Source: a bacterium (lineage in GTDB: Bacteria > Vulcanimicrobiota > JABDET01). Taken from it: a stretch of DNA of 64,000 nucleotides. Of the stretch, positions 15,027-25,223 are shown piece by piece. The position numbers were made by a program, and so were the translations under genes. The stretch is from contig JAKAVV010000011.1 in assembly GCA_021817145.1 (NCBI GenBank), positions 1 through 64,000 of the forward strand, given 5' to 3'. Every line of letters starts with the position of its first letter. Positions within the stretch are counted from its first letter, which is position 1. The notes beneath the pieces were generated by a model. The model did no database searches. It was given only the letters and a program-made list of their open reading frames with translations, and was not told where the DNA came from.

Positions 15027-15102
15027 TTAGTTTAGATAAAAAAAAAGGAATACCTTTTTACTCGTGGAAGGGAATAGAAACAAGCTGAACAGGAGGATGA
15101 AG

Positions 15103-15825
15103 GTGAACGATAAAAAAAGGCAATTTGTGAATTTCGGGTTTTATAAAATCCACCCTGAATGGCGCAAACTTTCATTTCAAGAAAGAGAAAAAGGAAAACA
15201 AGAGTTTATCTCTGTAATAGAAGAATACTCTAAACAGATCATTATTCTCCCTTATACCCTGGTAGGAATCCGAGGGGATTGTGATTTCATGCTGTGGAAA
15301 ATAGGGTGTGAATTAAAAGATTTTACAGATCTGCAGGCGCGGTTATTTGGCACTGGAATTGGACCTTATCTGGAAACCCCTTACTATTATCTTGCCATGA
15401 CTCGACGATCCATTTATTTTGATCCAGTGGATCCATCCCATGATGGAGAAAGAACCAAAATCATTCCAGGAAAGCGAAAATTCCTTTTTGTTTACCCTTT
15501 TATTAAAACCAGAGACTGGTATGCTCTTTCAAAAGAGAAACGCCAGGAAATGATGACTGAACACATTATCACTGGAAATCGTTACCCATCTGTAAAATTA
15601 AACACAACCTACTCTTATGGCCTGGATGACCAGGAGTTCGTCGTGGCTTTTGAGACCGACAATCCCGAAGATTTTCTCGATCTGGTGATGGAACTTAGAG
15701 AATCTCAAGCAAGCCGATACACAAAACAAGATACACCTACTTTTACCTGTATGGCTGCAAATATCCGAGAAGTCCTCAATTCTTTAATGATAGAACGAGA
15801 AAAAGCAACCCTGACCAAGGGATAA
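15103..15825 (+). CDS. chdC: Coproheme decarboxylase (HemQ/ChdC, chlorite dismutase family)
   Basis: 240 residues from GTG 15103, which has AGGAGG six bases upstream. The frame also opens at GTG 15064 and ATG 15097, the latter directly abutting that AGGAGG. The enzyme converts coproheme to heme b in the coproporphyrin-dependent pathway. The region YPFIKTRDWYALSKEKRQEM then MTEH keeps the catalytic Tyr (about 131), a Lys (135) and the proximal heme His (154) of ChdC enzymes. GLDDQEFVVAFE and a C-terminal SRYTKQDTPTF follow. The arginine of true chlorite dismutases was not identified. The next gene starts two bases after the stop. Confidence 0.88.
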   Translation: MNDKKRQFVNFGFYKIHPEWRKLSFQEREKGKQEFISVIEEYSKQIIILPYTLVGIRGDCDFMLWKIGCELKDFTDLQARLFGTGIGPYLETPYYYLAMTRRSIYFDPVDPSHDGERTKIIPGKRKFLFVYPFIKTRDWYALSKEKRQEMMTEHIITGNRYPSVKLNTTYSYGLDDQEFVVAFETDNPEDFLDLVMELRESQASRYTKQDTPTFTCMAANIREVLNSLMIEREKATLTKG

Positions 15826-15826
15826 T

Positions 15827-16621
15827 ATGGACGAATTTTTAGAATTTGAAGAAATACGAAAAGAGTATGAAAGCCTTAAATTTCCTTGGGAAGAAAGGCG
15901 AGCTTTCCCTCGAAAACAAGAAGCTCTCCCTGTTCGATTTATGGGAGAAGAGATTCAGAGTCAACTGTTTTCTATTGATGTGGGAGGTGGAGGGGTTCGA
16001 ATTGTAACCCAAAAACCTCTTGTTCAGTCTAAAGTTTACGATTTTGAACTTTTATTAAAAGGACTTGAGAGCCCGATTCGAGTAAAAGGAAAACCTGTCT
16101 GGACAAGAGCTCTGAATATCCCAAGCGAATATTATGAATCAGGATTAATGTTCCAGGAAATTCACCCTGAAGATCAAGAGAAAATTATCGAGTATGCAAA
16201 AAAGCAGCCTCCTTTAAAACAAGATGAAAGAAGAAAATTTTTAAGAGTCCCCAGACTTTTGCTGGTTACCTTAACCCATGATTCAGGAGAAAAGACCCTG
16301 GCAGGCATGATTCTGGATATCAGTTCAGGAGGAGCGCGAATTTTAACCTCAAAACTTCTTCCTCAAAAAACCATCATTGAACTAAAAATCGAGCTGGAAG
16401 AAGGGGAACCTCTTGTGGTGCAAGGACAGGTCATGTGGGGAAACTCTGTTGAAGCTTTGAAAAAATTTCAACATGGAATTGAATTTGTTCATGGCATAAA
16501 ATTTCAAGAACAGAAAGAAAAAACAAAAGAAATGATAGAAGATTACCTCAAATTTCGCAATTCATTGGTTGAAGTGAATCTTGTTGAGACTTTACTAAAT
16601 ATCGCAAAGCAGAAATCCTGA
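15827..16621 (+). CDS. Protein with two PilZ domains (c-di-GMP receptor candidate)
   Basis: 264 residues. Two PilZ domains are visible. The first (about 22-125) has RRAFPRK with SIDVGGGGVRI. The second (about 134-250) has RRKFLRVPR with ILDISSGGARI. Both keep the RxxxR and D/NxSxxG-type c-di-GMP contacts, although the first has Gly in place of Ser (DVGGGG). It starts two bases after chdC, so the two share a transcript. The last 27 bases overlap the convergent hydrolase gene. Its partner is unknown. The GGDEF protein at 8504 could supply the ligand. Confidence 0.88.
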   Translation: MDEFLEFEEIRKEYESLKFPWEERRAFPRKQEALPVRFMGEEIQSQLFSIDVGGGGVRIVTQKPLVQSKVYDFELLLKGLESPIRVKGKPVWTRALNIPSEYYESGLMFQEIHPEDQEKIIEYAKKQPPLKQDERRKFLRVPRLLLVTLTHDSGEKTLAGMILDISSGGARILTSKLLPQKTIIELKIELEEGEPLVVQGQVMWGNSVEALKKFQHGIEFVHGIKFQEQKEKTKEMIEDYLKFRNSLVEVNLVETLLNIAKQKS

Positions 16622-18940: not shown

Positions 18941-20038
18941 TTACTTCTTCTGAGTTTCCTGCTTTTTTTGAAGAGAGCGCAAAAAATCAATAATTTCAAA
19001 CCGCTCTTTATTGGTTAAACGAGTCGCAAAAGAGGGCATTGTTCCAGGTCCCATGGTAAGATAATAAAAAAGCTGTCCATCTGTCAGTTTAACGGGATCT
19101 TCAACAGGAACATTCCCTAATTTTTTTCGAGCTAAATTAGGGGGATGTGGCATAAATACATTTCCAACAGGGCCATTCCCTTTCCCCTGGGTCCCATGGC
19201 AGAAAGCGCAGTTCTGAAGAAAAAGGGTCTTTCCTCTCGCAATATTTGAGGACGTTGGAGGAACGGGATCTTTTACTGTGATAAAAGCAGCAGCGCTTTT
19301 GGGAAACCCTCCAGAACCTAAAGATTTTTTATCAATACGAAAAGCATCATGAGGAATCTTCCAGCCCAAGGGTTTTACAAAATATTTTTGCTGTCCTTCA
19401 GTTGGCATACTGATCGTTCCTTCTGGCTGCGGAACAGCTGCATGAGCAGTTGGAAGTTTATACGGTTCATTCACCATTTTTACGGCGCAGCCAGACATAA
19501 ACAGGGTAAAAAGAAGAAAAATCAAAGCATAAGTAACCAGAGATTTAGCCCCTTTTAACTTTAAAATATCGCGAGCTTTTTCAGCCCCTTCTCCATCCAC
19601 AACAATGGCTATATTTCCAATTTCAACAGGCTTATCTTCCTGAACAGGAGGATTCAATTTTCGATACCTTCTTGTTTCCCAATAAAAAAAGAGGAGTGTT
19701 GAAATCAGCCCGCCGACCATACAGCATTCATAAGTTGGAATAAAATCAATGGGGAAAGAAACCAGATCAAATCCACTGGTATGGATAGGCCATATAAGCT
19801 GGGTATAAGCAACAAAACCAAACCCTACGATCCCGCCGAGAACCCAACAAATTCTGACTAAATTCCTCATTCTCATGGGATGACTTCTGCTGGGGGGGAG
19901 AACCTCTTCAGGAAGAGGATAAGCAGAACGAACCTCTATGGAATCAGGGGGAACCCCTGCATCCACAACTGCTTTATGCGCTTCTAAAGCATTGTCTTCA
20001 TTTTCAAATTCAGCGCAGATTCGCATCTCTTCATTCAC
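18941..20038 (-). CDS. Alternative complex III: ActD-ActE fusion (DUF3341 plus cytochrome c)
   Basis: 365 residues. Residues 1-165 are a DUF3341 (ActD) protein with an N-terminal ferredoxin-like part and two membrane helices (about 62-80 and 105-122). It then runs in frame into a typical lipoprotein signal, ALIFLLFTLFMSGC with Cys184, and a monoheme cytochrome c with CAFCH (277-281) and a Met ligand in GPGTMPSF (335). ActE is usually a separate lipoprotein cytochrome. There is no stop between the two halves. Internal initiation at a TTG just before the signal is conceivable. It overlaps actC by 8 bases. Confidence 0.85.
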   Translation of the reverse strand: MNEEMRICAEFENEDNALEAHKAVVDAGVPPDSIEVRSAYPLPEEVLPPSRSHPMRMRNLVRICWVLGGIVGFGFVAYTQLIWPIHTSGFDLVSFPIDFIPTYECCMVGGLISTLLFFYWETRRYRKLNPPVQEDKPVEIGNIAIVVDGEGAEKARDILKLKGAKSLVTYALIFLLFTLFMSGCAVKMVNEPYKLPTAHAAVPQPEGTISMPTEGQQKYFVKPLGWKIPHDAFRIDKKSLGSGGFPKSAAAFITVKDPVPPTSSNIARGKTLFLQNCAFCHGTQGKGNGPVGNVFMPHPPNLARKKLGNVPVEDPVKLTDGQLFYYLTMGPGTMPSFATRLTNKERFEIIDFLRSLQKKQETQKK

Positions 20039-21431
20039 CCCACTTAAAAAAGACCATTTTTTTACCGGCTACTTCATGCACTTTTTGCCGAGATTTTGTT
20101 TCCAGCATTTCCCAAATCGGAATAATCGGGAAAATTCGGATAAATGCCATAATACCCGCAAAAACAAAACAAAAGGTGGCAAAAATAATGCTTAACTCTG
20201 TCACACTTGGGAAATACATGTGAACATTTCTGACTAATCCATTGTAAGTTTCAGCCCCTTCAACCACAATTAAAACACGCTCAATATACATTCCAAGAGT
20301 TACCCCGCAGGCAAGGAAAAACATCGCCAAAGGGCTTTTCCTAAATCCCCTAAAAATCAAGCAGCAGGTTGGGATAATAAAATTGGTCGCGAACATAATC
20401 CAGAACATAGGGGCAAAATGACCAAAAAGCCAGTCTTTAAACCAGTTCATGACATTGGTGTCATGGGCGTAAAAATGAGGCATAAAATCATTAAACAACA
20501 TGTAATTCCATGCGAGATCAATACACAAGAAGATTCTTCCCATATAATCGAAATGAATGGTTTGAATAATATCTTTAAAAGGAAGGGTCCACCGCAGAAG
20601 AGCCATGGCAATAATAGCAGAAGCCACTCCAGCATATAAAGCTCCAATCACAAAATAAGGTCCAAAAATAGTTTCATGCCAGGCAGGGGTTTTCTGCATA
20701 GCAAAATCCATACCTACAATCGTATGAACAGAAAAAACGACCGGCAGAATCAGAACACTGCATAAAGCAGCTGCTTCTTTAGCCCTTTTCCATTCTGCCT
20801 GTGTTCCTCTCCATCCCCAGCTCAAAATGGTATAAAGCGTTCTTTTCCAGCCTGTAACACGGGTTCTTAAAATTCCTAAATCAGGCACAAGTGTTGAATA
20901 AACGAACACAAGAGTGCCAATCGTATAAGTTGAAATCGCAAAAAAATCCCACATTAAGGGGGAGCGAAAATCAGGCCACAAATGTCTGAAATTAGGGTAA
21001 GGCAGCATGAAAAAAACAATCCCATTTCTTCCAACATGAATAAAAGGAAAAGCAGCTGCCATAGGAAGAGTAAACAAAGTAATCACTTCTGAGACACGAG
21101 TCACGCTGGATTTCCATTCAGCTCCACTCAGTCGTAAAATGCCAGAAATCAAAGTTCCCGCATGGGCAACCCCGATCCAGAACACAAAAGTAACAATATA
21201 CCAGCCCCAATAAACAGGAACATTTAATCCAGTAACACCTAACCCCCTTTGAGTTTGCTGCCAGAACTCCCATGCCCCCCATAACATAGCGATCCCAAAA
21301 AATAAAAAGAGCAGCTTTTCCTTTAAAGTAATAGGGGTTTCAACAGGGTACATGATCTTATCAATCATTTCCTTGTTAGAAATCTCAGGAAGTTCAAAAT
21401 CGGGTTCTTTTATCGCATGATCCATACTCAT
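20031..21431 (-). CDS. actC: Alternative complex III subunit C (NrfD-like quinol-oxidising membrane protein)
   Basis: 466 residues with about ten membrane helices, the usual size of ActC. The NrfD/PsrC family quinol site is housed here. Visible family features are FWIGVAHAGTLISGILRLSG, HVGRNGIVFFMLPYPN and WAAxxxA-type helices, with ending residues of a charged cytoplasmic tail. It passes electrons from quinol to the iron-sulfur subunit encoded upstream. It is ten bases downstream of the FeS subunit gene and overlaps the D/E fusion gene by 8 bases. Confidence 0.92.
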   Translation of the reverse strand: MSMDHAIKEPDFELPEISNKEMIDKIMYPVETPITLKEKLLFLFFGIAMLWGAWEFWQQTQRGLGVTGLNVPVYWGWYIVTFVFWIGVAHAGTLISGILRLSGAEWKSSVTRVSEVITLFTLPMAAAFPFIHVGRNGIVFFMLPYPNFRHLWPDFRSPLMWDFFAISTYTIGTLVFVYSTLVPDLGILRTRVTGWKRTLYTILSWGWRGTQAEWKRAKEAAALCSVLILPVVFSVHTIVGMDFAMQKTPAWHETIFGPYFVIGALYAGVASAIIAMALLRWTLPFKDIIQTIHFDYMGRIFLCIDLAWNYMLFNDFMPHFYAHDTNVMNWFKDWLFGHFAPMFWIMFATNFIIPTCCLIFRGFRKSPLAMFFLACGVTLGMYIERVLIVVEGAETYNGLVRNVHMYFPSVTELSIIFATFCFVFAGIMAFIRIFPIIPIWEMLETKSRQKVHEVAGKKMVFFKWGE

Positions 21432-21440
21432 ACCTCCTTT

Positions 21441-22253
21441 CTAAAAAGGCTCATCCACACGTTGTGGTTTTAAATAAATCACGTGCGGTTTTGTGTTTTT
21501 ATCTTCTAAAATTTTATGGGTCCGATCCGATTCATCAAGATATTTAGAAACCGCGCTGTTCGGATCATGCAAATCGCCAAAAACAAGAGCTGAGGTTGGG
21601 CAAGATTGGACACAAGCTGTCCTGAGTTCTCCATCTTGAAGCGGTTTTCCAGCCATCCTTGCATCCCTCTGAGCTTCTCGGATTCTCTGAACGCAAAAGG
21701 TGCATTTTTCCATGACTCCAGAAGATCGAACTGTCACATCTGGATTTAACTGTTCAGGAAGAGGATGAGGAAAATAAGGTTGAAACCAGTTAAAAACACG
21801 AACATGGTAAGGGCAGTCCTGCCCACAGTATCGTGTACCTATACATCGGGGGTAAATCTGAGCATTTAATCCATCAAAAGTATGCTGAGCCGCATAAACA
21901 GGGCAGACTGATTCACAAGGGGCATTCCCGCACTGCTGGCAGAGCATTCCGACAAATTCCGCTGTTGGAGCCTCTTTATTCCCAATATAAGTTCTTTCAA
22001 TATGAAGCCAGTCCATCATTCTTCCTCTGGCGCATTCTTTATCTCCTACAACAGGAATATTATTTTCAGAATTGCATGCAATCACACAGGCTTCGCAGCC
22101 AATGCATCGATCCACATCAAACACAAGCCCCCACTGGGGATCTTTAAACTCCATGATCCCTTCCCCCGGAGTTTCTGTTGTGCCTGCGTACAAAAGCTGA
22201 TCTTCAAGGATCTGTTCAGATCTTGATTGATCAGACAATTTCATTTTTTTCAT
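21441..22253 (-). CDS. Alternative complex III iron-sulfur subunit (ActB C-terminal half as separate protein)
   Basis: 270 residues. Four cysteine clusters for Fe-S binding are visible: CIGCEACVIAC, CQQCGNAPCESVCP, CIGTRYCGQDCPYHV and CTFCVQRI with CPTSAL. In Rhodothermus ActB this domain is fused behind the molybdopterin-type domain. Here it is a separate gene 15 bases after it, so the enzyme is split, as in several other lineages. Cofactors would be 4Fe-4S and 3Fe-4S centres. The protein has no signal of its own and probably travels with the TAT-targeted partner. Confidence 0.93.
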   Translation of the reverse strand: MKKMKLSDQSRSEQILEDQLLYAGTTETPGEGIMEFKDPQWGLVFDVDRCIGCEACVIACNSENNIPVVGDKECARGRMMDWLHIERTYIGNKEAPTAEFVGMLCQQCGNAPCESVCPVYAAQHTFDGLNAQIYPRCIGTRYCGQDCPYHVRVFNWFQPYFPHPLPEQLNPDVTVRSSGVMEKCTFCVQRIREAQRDARMAGKPLQDGELRTACVQSCPTSALVFGDLHDPNSAVSKYLDESDRTHKILEDKNTKPHVIYLKPQRVDEPF

Positions 22254-22268
22254 TTTCCCTCCATTTCA

Positions 22269-24506
22269 TTACAAAGTTAAAATCTGAACAGGGAGTCTAT
22301 CCATTCGAGTGTCCTGAAGAGTCAAATGCTGCTTCATACTTGTTTTCTTGACCTGAACCATGGTTGAATACCAGGCTAATTCATCCGCTTCATTCCACAT
22401 CGGATGAATAATTGATAAAGGATTAAATCCTCGGTTGTAAGCATACTGACCATAAGAATAATGACCTTGTCCAACAGGGACAGCCACACAAGAAGGGTGA
22501 AGTCCTGGATTAGGATAAACAGGACCTTGAATCATTCCCGAATCTGTTTCTAATTGGATCACATCTTCTCTTGTTAAATTCAATTGTTTTGCTAAACCTG
22601 CAGGAACCTCGATCCAGGAAGCCCAAACAATGGTTGTCATGGGATCCGGCAGCTCCTGCATCCAAGGACGATTGGCTAAAGAACCATCTCCAAGAGCAAG
22701 AGAAGGATAGGGAAGCAAAACAAACCCATTTTTATTCCCTGAAAATTCTGGTTCTACCTTTCCATTAAAAGAGATCTTTTTCAAATATTCCCACGGGTTT
22801 GATCCAGTATAAATTTTCCCTGTTTCCTTTACAACAGAGGGTGGATAAAGAGGATTTGTTTTATTCCCTTGATACATTTCCCAATTCAGAGGATAATCTT
22901 TCCAGATCCCTCCCCTAACAATTAAAGTTTCCCAGTTATTTTGATCCGGATAACGGCTTTTTAACAGCTCATTTAAATTATTCCAGGGGAACTCTTTCTG
23001 CAGTGAGGAGAGTTTCACAGAAGCTAAAAGAGCATCCGAAATACTGATGCTTCTCCCCCAATCAGGAACAAGACAAACAGGCTGCTGTAATTCATAAAGA
23101 GTTTCGCGCTCCCCTTTCATTCCAAAAGGACCCTCAATCCTTCTATCCCCCCATTCTTCAAGCCAGGATTGGGTGGCAACAATGTAATCAGCCAGCAGCG
23201 CGGTTTCATGAATAAAAGGGGTAAAAACAACTTTATTCTTTGCTTTATTAAATAATAGTTCAAAGTTCAAAGCTGACGGGAGCAAAAATCTTGGATTTGC
23301 GTCAAAAACCCAAATTGTTTCAAAATTTCTAGATTTCATCTGATTCAAAGCTTCTTTTGCAGAAAGGAAAAGAGCTGCAGGAATCTGTTTTTGATCTGGC
23401 AAAAGGAGGAAATCGCTGTTTTCAAAAGAAGGAAATTCGCCTGTCAGCAGATGATTCAAAGTTTGAATCATCGCAGTATTCCAAACTCCATTTGTATAAA
23501 GTCCATTCTGAGAACCAGAAAAAGCAGCAGGATGCCGAGCAGACAAAAGTCTCGCGGACAATCGCTGGTAAATCCCTTCAGGAACACCTGTTATTCTTGA
23601 AATTGTTTCAAGAGGAATCTGTTTTGCCCATGCTGGCCACTCCCCCTTTTTCTGGGAAGAAATTAAATTTCCAAGCCCAACAGCAGCCCATCCTTCTGTT
23701 CCAGGAGCCACAGGAATCCAACGGTCAGAATTAGCGGTTGAAGTATTCATAAGAGGAGAAAACGTAACTAAAATTCCTCTTTGCTGATCCCGATGGCGGC
23801 TTTTCCCCTGACGAAACTCCCCATACTGCCATCCATCATGAACTGGGGAATTCCCCATGAGGAGAAAATCGCTTCCAAATGAAACAGCATAATCAGACTT
23901 CAGAAGATTGTTATAAGGAAGCTCAGGTTTTCCCGTCAAACTCTTCATGGCTGTTCTTTCTGTCTGCTGACCAGGAAAATCTAAAACCCAAATTTTAGCC
24001 CCAACTTTTTCAGCCAGGTAAGCTAATAAAGCCCCTTTTGTTCCAGACAGCGGTTTTGTTATCCACAGCATACTTCCTTTTCTAGAAGCAGCGGCATCTA
24101 ACTGGTTAGCTAACAACTTAAAAATTTCAGACTGATCTTTAACTGTTGTAAAACTGCTCCCATTTGCTTTTAAAGAAGCAGGCAGGCGATCCGGATTGTA
24201 CAGGGCTTGCAGTTCTGAATGTCCACGAGCGCAAACTTTTCCATGATTCACAGGATGAACAGGGATCCCCTCAATTTTTTTCGCTCTTCCATCCATAACC
24301 CGAACAGAAACACCGCATCCACCTCCACATCCTTGACAGGTTGTGGCAAACCAGACCGATTCCCCTGGTTCACGATATTCAGGCATATCTAATTGAGAGA
24401 CTAAAAATTGGTGCGGTGGAAGAGCGCAGCCAGCTAAACAGGCTGCAGCTCCTGTCATCAACGTAAGTTTTACAAACTCTCTGCGAGTAATCTCCATTTC
24501 AATCAA
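22269..24506 (-). CDS. Alternative complex III molybdopterin-type subunit (ActB N-terminal half)
   Basis: 745 residues. The N-terminus MIEMEITRREFVKLTLMTGA ends with CLAGC, a twin-arginine motif followed by a lipobox. A Cys cluster CQGCGGGCGVSVRVMDGRAK with a distant CARG (CxxCxxxCx27C) occupies 58-93, the 4Fe-4S site of the MopB family. The rest keeps the family's fold but no recognisable molybdenum-ligand motif, consistent with ActB proteins, which lack the cofactor. It lies 12 bases after actA and 15 bases before the FeS subunit. Confidence 0.92.
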   Translation of the reverse strand: MIEMEITRREFVKLTLMTGAAACLAGCALPPHQFLVSQLDMPEYREPGESVWFATTCQGCGGGCGVSVRVMDGRAKKIEGIPVHPVNHGKVCARGHSELQALYNPDRLPASLKANGSSFTTVKDQSEIFKLLANQLDAAASRKGSMLWITKPLSGTKGALLAYLAEKVGAKIWVLDFPGQQTERTAMKSLTGKPELPYNNLLKSDYAVSFGSDFLLMGNSPVHDGWQYGEFRQGKSRHRDQQRGILVTFSPLMNTSTANSDRWIPVAPGTEGWAAVGLGNLISSQKKGEWPAWAKQIPLETISRITGVPEGIYQRLSARLLSARHPAAFSGSQNGLYTNGVWNTAMIQTLNHLLTGEFPSFENSDFLLLPDQKQIPAALFLSAKEALNQMKSRNFETIWVFDANPRFLLPSALNFELLFNKAKNKVVFTPFIHETALLADYIVATQSWLEEWGDRRIEGPFGMKGERETLYELQQPVCLVPDWGRSISISDALLASVKLSSLQKEFPWNNLNELLKSRYPDQNNWETLIVRGGIWKDYPLNWEMYQGNKTNPLYPPSVVKETGKIYTGSNPWEYLKKISFNGKVEPEFSGNKNGFVLLPYPSLALGDGSLANRPWMQELPDPMTTIVWASWIEVPAGLAKQLNLTREDVIQLETDSGMIQGPVYPNPGLHPSCVAVPVGQGHYSYGQYAYNRGFNPLSIIHPMWNEADELAWYSTMVQVKKTSMKQHLTLQDTRMDRLPVQILTL

Positions 24507-24518
24507 AATCCTCCATCC

Positions 24519-25223
24519 TTAATAATGACAGTCCGAACAATTTCTCATTTGACTTAAAGAAGGGGCATCTGGTCCGCCAGGGAATTTTTTGCCTGCCCAT
24601 TGGGTATGGCAGTTAATGCAGTGTCCCATTGTTGTCAAAGGAGTTTCCCCTCCATAAACAATATCTTTCCAGAAAAATCCTTGTTTTGGAACAACCACTT
24701 TCATTTCAGCCACATTCCCATGGCATAAAACGCAAGGATAAGAAGCAGGGTATTTTTTTGCAAGGGCAGCTAATTCAGGATCTTTCTTTTCTGCCTGCAG
24801 GAAAAAGTCAACATGAACTTTATGAGTAAAGTGCACAAATTGAGGCAGCTTATACACTCTAGCCCAATGAATCTCTTTATGATTTTTCCAGTAAGACGCA
24901 AGCTTAGCCACGTTTGCCAGTTCACGAGGATTCAAAGCGTATTTACCGGTTAAAAGCGGATCCGATGAATTAACGATTTGGTGACACTGCATGCAGTCCT
25001 GAACAGAGGGCATGCCAGCAAAAGAGCCTTTTGCCACATCGGTATGGCAGTAAAAGCAGGAAATATGCATTTCTGTAACATGATGTCTGTGCTTAAAATA
25101 AATCGGCTGCGCAGGAACGCGATTGATATAAAGTTGAACTCCCCAGAGGACTAAAAAAGTTGCGACAACGCCTGCAATTATGAGCTTGATCAGTGTGCGA
25201 ATTAATTTTTCTTCGTAACTCAT
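24519..25223 (-). CDS. actA: Alternative complex III pentaheme cytochrome c subunit
   Basis: 234 residues. An N-terminal membrane anchor (about 9-33) is followed by five CxxCH haem sites: CFYCH (56), CMQCH (77), CVLCH, CINCH and CSDCH near the C-terminus. That is the ActA pattern. It is the first gene of the operon and probably transcribed with the four genes that follow. The complex oxidises quinol and reduces a soluble or oxidase-bound cytochrome. No terminal oxidase gene is in the window. Confidence 0.95.
   Translation of the reverse strand: MSYEEKLIRTLIKLIIAGVVATFLVLWGVQLYINRVPAQPIYFKHRHHVTEMHISCFYCHTDVAKGSFAGMPSVQDCMQCHQIVNSSDPLLTGKYALNPRELANVAKLASYWKNHKEIHWARVYKLPQFVHFTHKVHVDFFLQAEKKDPELAALAKKYPASYPCVLCHGNVAEMKVVVPKQGFFWKDIVYGGETPLTTMGHCINCHTQWAGKKFPGGPDAPSLSQMRNCSDCHY

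Follow-up and report, generated by a model that had tools for sequence, protein, structure and literature searches.

The FbcH protein of Bradyrhizobium japonicum is a precursor of cytochrome b and cytochrome c1 that is cut by signal peptidase at an internal signal. It resembles the actDE product described here in being a polyprotein in which a membrane subunit of a quinol:cytochrome c oxidoreductase is joined to the c-type cytochrome of the enzyme, and probably also in being cut at an internal signal. It is the nearest precedent in kind. Its signal differs in not being of the lipoprotein type, and its subunits are unrelated.

The canonical alternative complex III (ACIII) of R. marinus, F. johnsoniae, Roseiflexus and Chloroflexus shares with the locus studied here the ActD fold, a conserved glutamate in the second transmembrane (TM) helix of ActD, the ActE lipobox and the gene order A-B-C-D-E. 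It differs in having separate actD and actE genes as well as an actF gene, and in R. marinus ActB is a single chain. In R. marinus, the N- and C-terminus of ActD are cytoplasmic and its Glu122 is conserved, while the lipobox of the ActE from the same organism is located at Leu21-Cys24 (PMC5928083). In F. johnsoniae, ActE was reported to be non-essential for electron transfer (PMC8552683). The fusion of ActD with ActE is itself already known from Melioribacter roseus, where Mros0042 was described with three TM helices (PMC3534657). No report of an internal lipobox kept in such a fusion was found in the open-licence PMC literature. Lipoprotein signals are described by a scheme of n-region, h-region and lipobox (PMC8689077). 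A survey of the Eremiobacterota reports mainly bc complexes (PMC6664022).

Here we analysed a bacterial DNA stretch of 64,000 nt (from here: the window), in which the fusion gene actDE occupies positions 18941 to 20026 of the minus strand and encodes 361 aa from an ATG, with the stop codon at 18941-18943. The earlier note had reported ActD and ActE in one frame without naming the strand; the open frame is real and lies on the minus strand. Pfam recognised a full ActD (PF11821, E 3e-14) at aa 3-162 and a full monohaem ActE as cytochrome c (PF13442/PF00034) at aa 261-352 of the same chain, in ATG numbering. A GTG at 20038 is an alternative start that would add 4 aa; the ATG at 20026, separated by 4 bases from the actC stop codon TGA (20031-20033), is more likely. 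The lipobox FMSGC is found inside the chain as the earlier note had said, and its Cys184, counted from the GTG, is Cys180 from the ATG. Compared with a relative from the same genus (87% identical), dN/dS was 0.08-0.13 in every segment, the join included (ActD 0.08, signal segment 0.13, rest 0.09-0.12), hence protein-level selection acts along the entire frame.

The gene is the last of an operon in the order actA, actB1, actB2, actC, actDE, all on the minus strand. The first gene, actA (24519-25223), encodes a pentahaem cytochrome with five CXXCH motifs and an N-terminal hydrophobic helix. It is followed by actB1 (22269-24506; PF04879), which is molybdopterin-oxidoreductase-like, by the separate gene actB2 (21441-22253; 4Fe-4S families) for the iron-sulfur subunit, and by actC (20031-21431; PF03916) for the NrfD/PsrC-type quinol-binding membrane subunit, which is 51-95% identical in relatives. 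The order was identical in the relatives wherever the contig reached, and a terminator-like hairpin with a T-run directly follows several copies of the fusion. The ActB1 N-terminus TRREFVKLTLMTGAAACLAGC (RREF...LAGC) resembles a Tat lipoprotein signal, so that ActB1 and, through its lipobox, ActE would both be lipid-anchored. ActB1 also has a complete CxxCxxxC...C Fe-S motif (Cys57, 60, 64, 92).

The assignment to ACIII follows from the joint presence in one operon of pentahaem ActA, Mo-enzyme-like ActB1, Fe-S ActB2 and NrfD-type ActC, from a monohaem cytochrome c ActE that phmmer matched to solved ActE chains, and from an ActD over the PF11821 cut-off in 12/12 fusions. ActD (PF11821) is described as exclusive to ACIII. 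The menaquinone reductase Qrc (QrcABCD) is similar in that ActA, ActB1 and ActB2 had their best respiratory NCBIfam scores with QrcA, QrcB and QrcC (the last also DsrO-like below cut-offs) and in having one NrfD subunit. It differs in that these scores stay under the equivalog cut-offs (QrcA 59 of 180, QrcB 182 of 440 and QrcC 226 of 400 bits), in the five haems of ActA and in the presence of ActD and ActE. No actF, the second NrfD-type subunit, was found beside the operon here or around the fusion in the relatives; together with the split actB and the Qrc-leaning scores, the locus is possibly an intermediate between Qrc and ACIII, and the operons of the relatives are alike in appearance. Outside the ACIII operon, the window encodes a chlorite dismutase family protein at 15064-15825 (PF06778, E 7e-56), possibly a coproheme decarboxylase of the HemQ type, and at 15827-16621 a protein that by eye resembles two tandem PilZ-type domains.

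The ActD domain comprises residues 1-165 (19532-20026, minus strand), as delimited by PF11821, alignment, AF2 and Foldseek, and canonical ActD ends at about residue 165 of the window protein in the alignment. Its two TM helices, at about 53-78 and 95-123, are flanked on either side by a beta-alpha-beta unit. Glu100 in TM2 is invariant in 26/26 aligned ActD and should, by its position, correspond to Glu122 of R. marinus ActD. An AF2 model of the ActD half from 26 sequences (pLDDT 76) had the ActD fold, and its best four PDB matches in Foldseek were all four solved ActD chains (8k9e_D, 6lod_D, 6btm_D and 6f0k_D). In this model the last ActD strand is at 162-165 and a helix begins at 166. The full-length model, with a pLDDT of 55, was too weak to be used for topology, and a mixed ActD/ActE alignment, which misplaced ActD C-termini, was left unfolded.

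In the other half, the cytochrome c domain of ActE covers residues 262-352 (18971-19243, minus strand; Pfam and alignment), with the haem motif CAFCH at 273-277 and Met330 in an invariant MP pair. A phmmer search with aa 178-361 matched the solved chain 6f0k_E and also 6lod_E and 6btm_E. Lipidation of ActE is not universal, since a gammaproteobacterial ActE adjoining ActD (L131:950-1501, genome G162) has a plain cleavable signal, LCPALAYA-W, without a lipobox Cys.

Between the two halves lies a predicted internal lipoprotein signal peptide (19490-19546, minus strand) of K161 and an 18-residue hydrophobic segment to G179, followed by Cys180 of the lipobox FMSGC (aa 176-180; 19487-19501, minus strand), which matches the PROSITE-type pattern and is predicted to be lipidated by Lgt and cleaved by LspA before the Cys. 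According to the alignment and the AF2 model, the final strand of ActD already contains the start of the signal, and a linker is absent. Since it stands behind a 160-residue ActD domain and not at the precursor N-terminus, it is internal and no standard prolipoprotein signal; judging from sequence, we suggest solely that it may work like one.

We surveyed 149 Eremiobacterota (WPS-2) genomes for ActD over the Pfam cut-off of PF11821. Twelve had it, from the families f1, f3, f10, f11 and f15, and a thirteenth (G065) had a sub-threshold match only. In all 12 genomes with this ACIII type, ActD and ActE were fused in a single frame without an internal stop, with a mean identity of 46% and a minimum of 34% among the fusions. 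The lipobox Cys was invariant in 12/12 fusions from five families, and no other residue in the range 161-206 was. In 12/12, 17-19 uncharged residues separate the last K/R from this Cys. The PROSITE-type pattern was satisfied by 10 of the 12, and the two others, AFPGC and LLCTGC, miss its strict form. Segment length and lipobox pattern thus fit the n-region, h-region and lipobox scheme (PMC8689077).

The lipobox Cys of the fusions also aligned with that of separately encoded ActE, and an M-x-x-Q(P) motif follows it at the same place in both, as exemplified by the unfused paralogue in G026, MSFKPLDLFILITLLILGGCGWQMSEQPRY. A disulphide role for Cys180 was rejected, because no partner Cys is conserved among the 12 fusions, in which the haem cysteines are the only other invariant ones. 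Genes for Lgt and LspA are present in the genome from which the window comes. In 3/12 genomes (G016, G026 and G044; L102, L103 and L104) another ACIII, of the canonical kind, is encoded as well. Its actD and actE are separate genes and adjoin actC and a second NrfD-like gene, so these genomes have two ACIII types each.

An independent comparison set came from the phylum in which GTDB places a Rhodothermaceae record (from here: Bacteroidota-type). Earlier cross-phylum searches with a fusion profile had returned no fusion, their E-value cut-offs of 1e-22 or 1e-28 being too strict. A permissive rerun at 1e-13 in this one phylum exposed the Bacteroidota-type fusions, and hence the negative results for Acidobacteriota and Pseudomonadota exclude close relatives of the Eremiobacterota fusion only. 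The 59 places retrieved reduced to 44 distinct ActD-ActE fusions (within L180-L237). In high-GC genomes, long open frames can precede ActD (L122 with 589 aa is an example); they are not fusions and were discarded.

Like Mros0042, the 44 Bacteroidota-type fusions join ActD in frame to a monohaem ActE via a third hydrophobic segment, but they differ from actDE in origin and in build. Their hydrophobic segment starts 14-20 residues past the end of ActD, after a linker, in 42/44, is an uncharged stretch of 21 residues in 40/44 and is followed by PF.WM in 44/44. A lipobox at the segment end was absent from all 44; one has a Cys near the helix start, six residues past a Lys, where it cannot belong to a signal peptide. 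By these features the Bacteroidota-type fusions look like uncut anchors. In a tree of 72 ActD sequences each fused set formed one supported group (100/99), with unfused ActD between them. Constraining the fused sets together was rejected, and with it a single origin of all ActD-ActE fusions (p-AU 0.0036, to be read with a degree of caution, as are the exact neighbours, because of long branches near the Eremiobacterota group). The 12 Eremiobacterota fusions descend from one event; the comparison is therefore between two events, not 56. The Bacteroidota-type fusions are less divergent (mean identity 57%, minimum 44%). The loss of the Cys in 0/12 of the more divergent Eremiobacterota set is hence not easily ascribed to recency.

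We consider it quite likely, on sequence grounds, that the internal signal is processed by Lgt and LspA, so that one gene would yield one precursor and two ACIII subunits. Of the three options raised in the earlier note, this post-translational cut appears to be favoured by the invariant Cys and the fixed hydrophobic segment of 17-19 residues. We infer the following course of topology, lipidation, cutting and assembly, which would supply ActD and ActE 1:1. ActD would insert with both ends in the cytoplasm. Given the cytoplasmic termini of R. marinus ActD (PMC5928083), the hydrophobic stretch behind it would then enter the membrane N-in/C-out, oriented like a lipoprotein signal peptide, and carry the cytochrome to the periplasm. 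Lgt would attach diacylglycerol to Cys180 and LspA would cut before it. ActD would keep a short hydrophobic C-terminal tail, and the lipid-anchored ActE would sit on ActA/ActB as in other ACIII. Lipidation without cutting is a possible further explanation for the conservation of the lipobox.

A true fusion that stays uncut, with the signal as a third TM helix, ActE tethered by it and the Cys either a relic or lipidated without cleavage, is an unlikely alternative for the Eremiobacterota protein. The Bacteroidota-type fusions, including Mros0042 (PMC3534657), appear to be built in just this way without a lipobox, and the third membrane helix proposed in the earlier note does describe them. In the Eremiobacterota fusions it is at odds with the invariant Cys and the fixed segment, as one would expect some of 12 proteins at 34-47% identity to have lost a relic Cys, just as it is gone in 44/44 Bacteroidota-type fusions. 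The helix would also be short, its 17-19 residues including part of the last ActD strand, and there is no linker. From the strand end at about 165 to Cys180 about 14 residues remain, which in the model would be short for a permanent spanning helix provided that strand 162-165 is folded, a point that is suggestive only. The statement that ActE would not be lipidated without the signal follows from known lipoprotein biology, yet the Bacteroidota-type fusions suggest that ActE can dispense with the lipid when tethered by a helix.

It is very improbable that internal translation initiation, the remaining option of the earlier note, produces a separate lipoprotein ActE beside the fused product. In part of family f11, a GTG lies 16 codons ahead of the Cys and downstream of a Shine-Dalgarno-like stretch, but this stretch is explained by conserved G-x-G-A-R codons. 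The fusions share no in-frame start that would give a usable n-region. In the window, the only candidates are a TTG and a GTG, 12 and 37 codons ahead of the Cys, and initiation at the TTG would give a product without a charged n-region. No more credible is cleavage by a different protease such as signal peptidase I, in which the Cys would play no part. Signal peptidase does cleave FbcH of Bradyrhizobium internally, but the Cys here is invariant at lipobox position +1, has G/S at -1 and lines up with the lipobox of ActE encoded on its own. That actD and actE are separate in the living organism and joined by an assembly error or a very recent stop-codon loss has next to no probability, for although the source assembly is a draft in 42 contigs, probably from a metagenome, a check of the relatives for stops or separate genes, as the earlier note had proposed, contradicted it with the same fusion in 12/12 assemblies, without an internal stop and under uniform purifying selection through the join.

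Taken together, it is fairly likely that actDE encodes a conserved respiratory polyprotein whose maturation runs through the lipoprotein pathway, with LspA cutting at an internal lipobox within a polytopic membrane protein and ActD and lipidated ActE arising 1:1, while the second, independent fusion is an uncut tether. A topology predictor would assign three helices to the actDE product and overlook the lipoprotein within it. If the precursor is cut, the range of the lipoprotein machinery extends from N-terminal signals to an internal signal behind a folded two-helix membrane subunit, and Lgt and LspA would accept signal peptides preceded by a large cytoplasmic and membrane domain. The need for the ActE lipid anchor is a live question because ActE was reported to be non-essential in F. 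johnsoniae (PMC8552683), and two independent ActD-ActE fusions, of which just one has a lipobox, are natural experiments on it.
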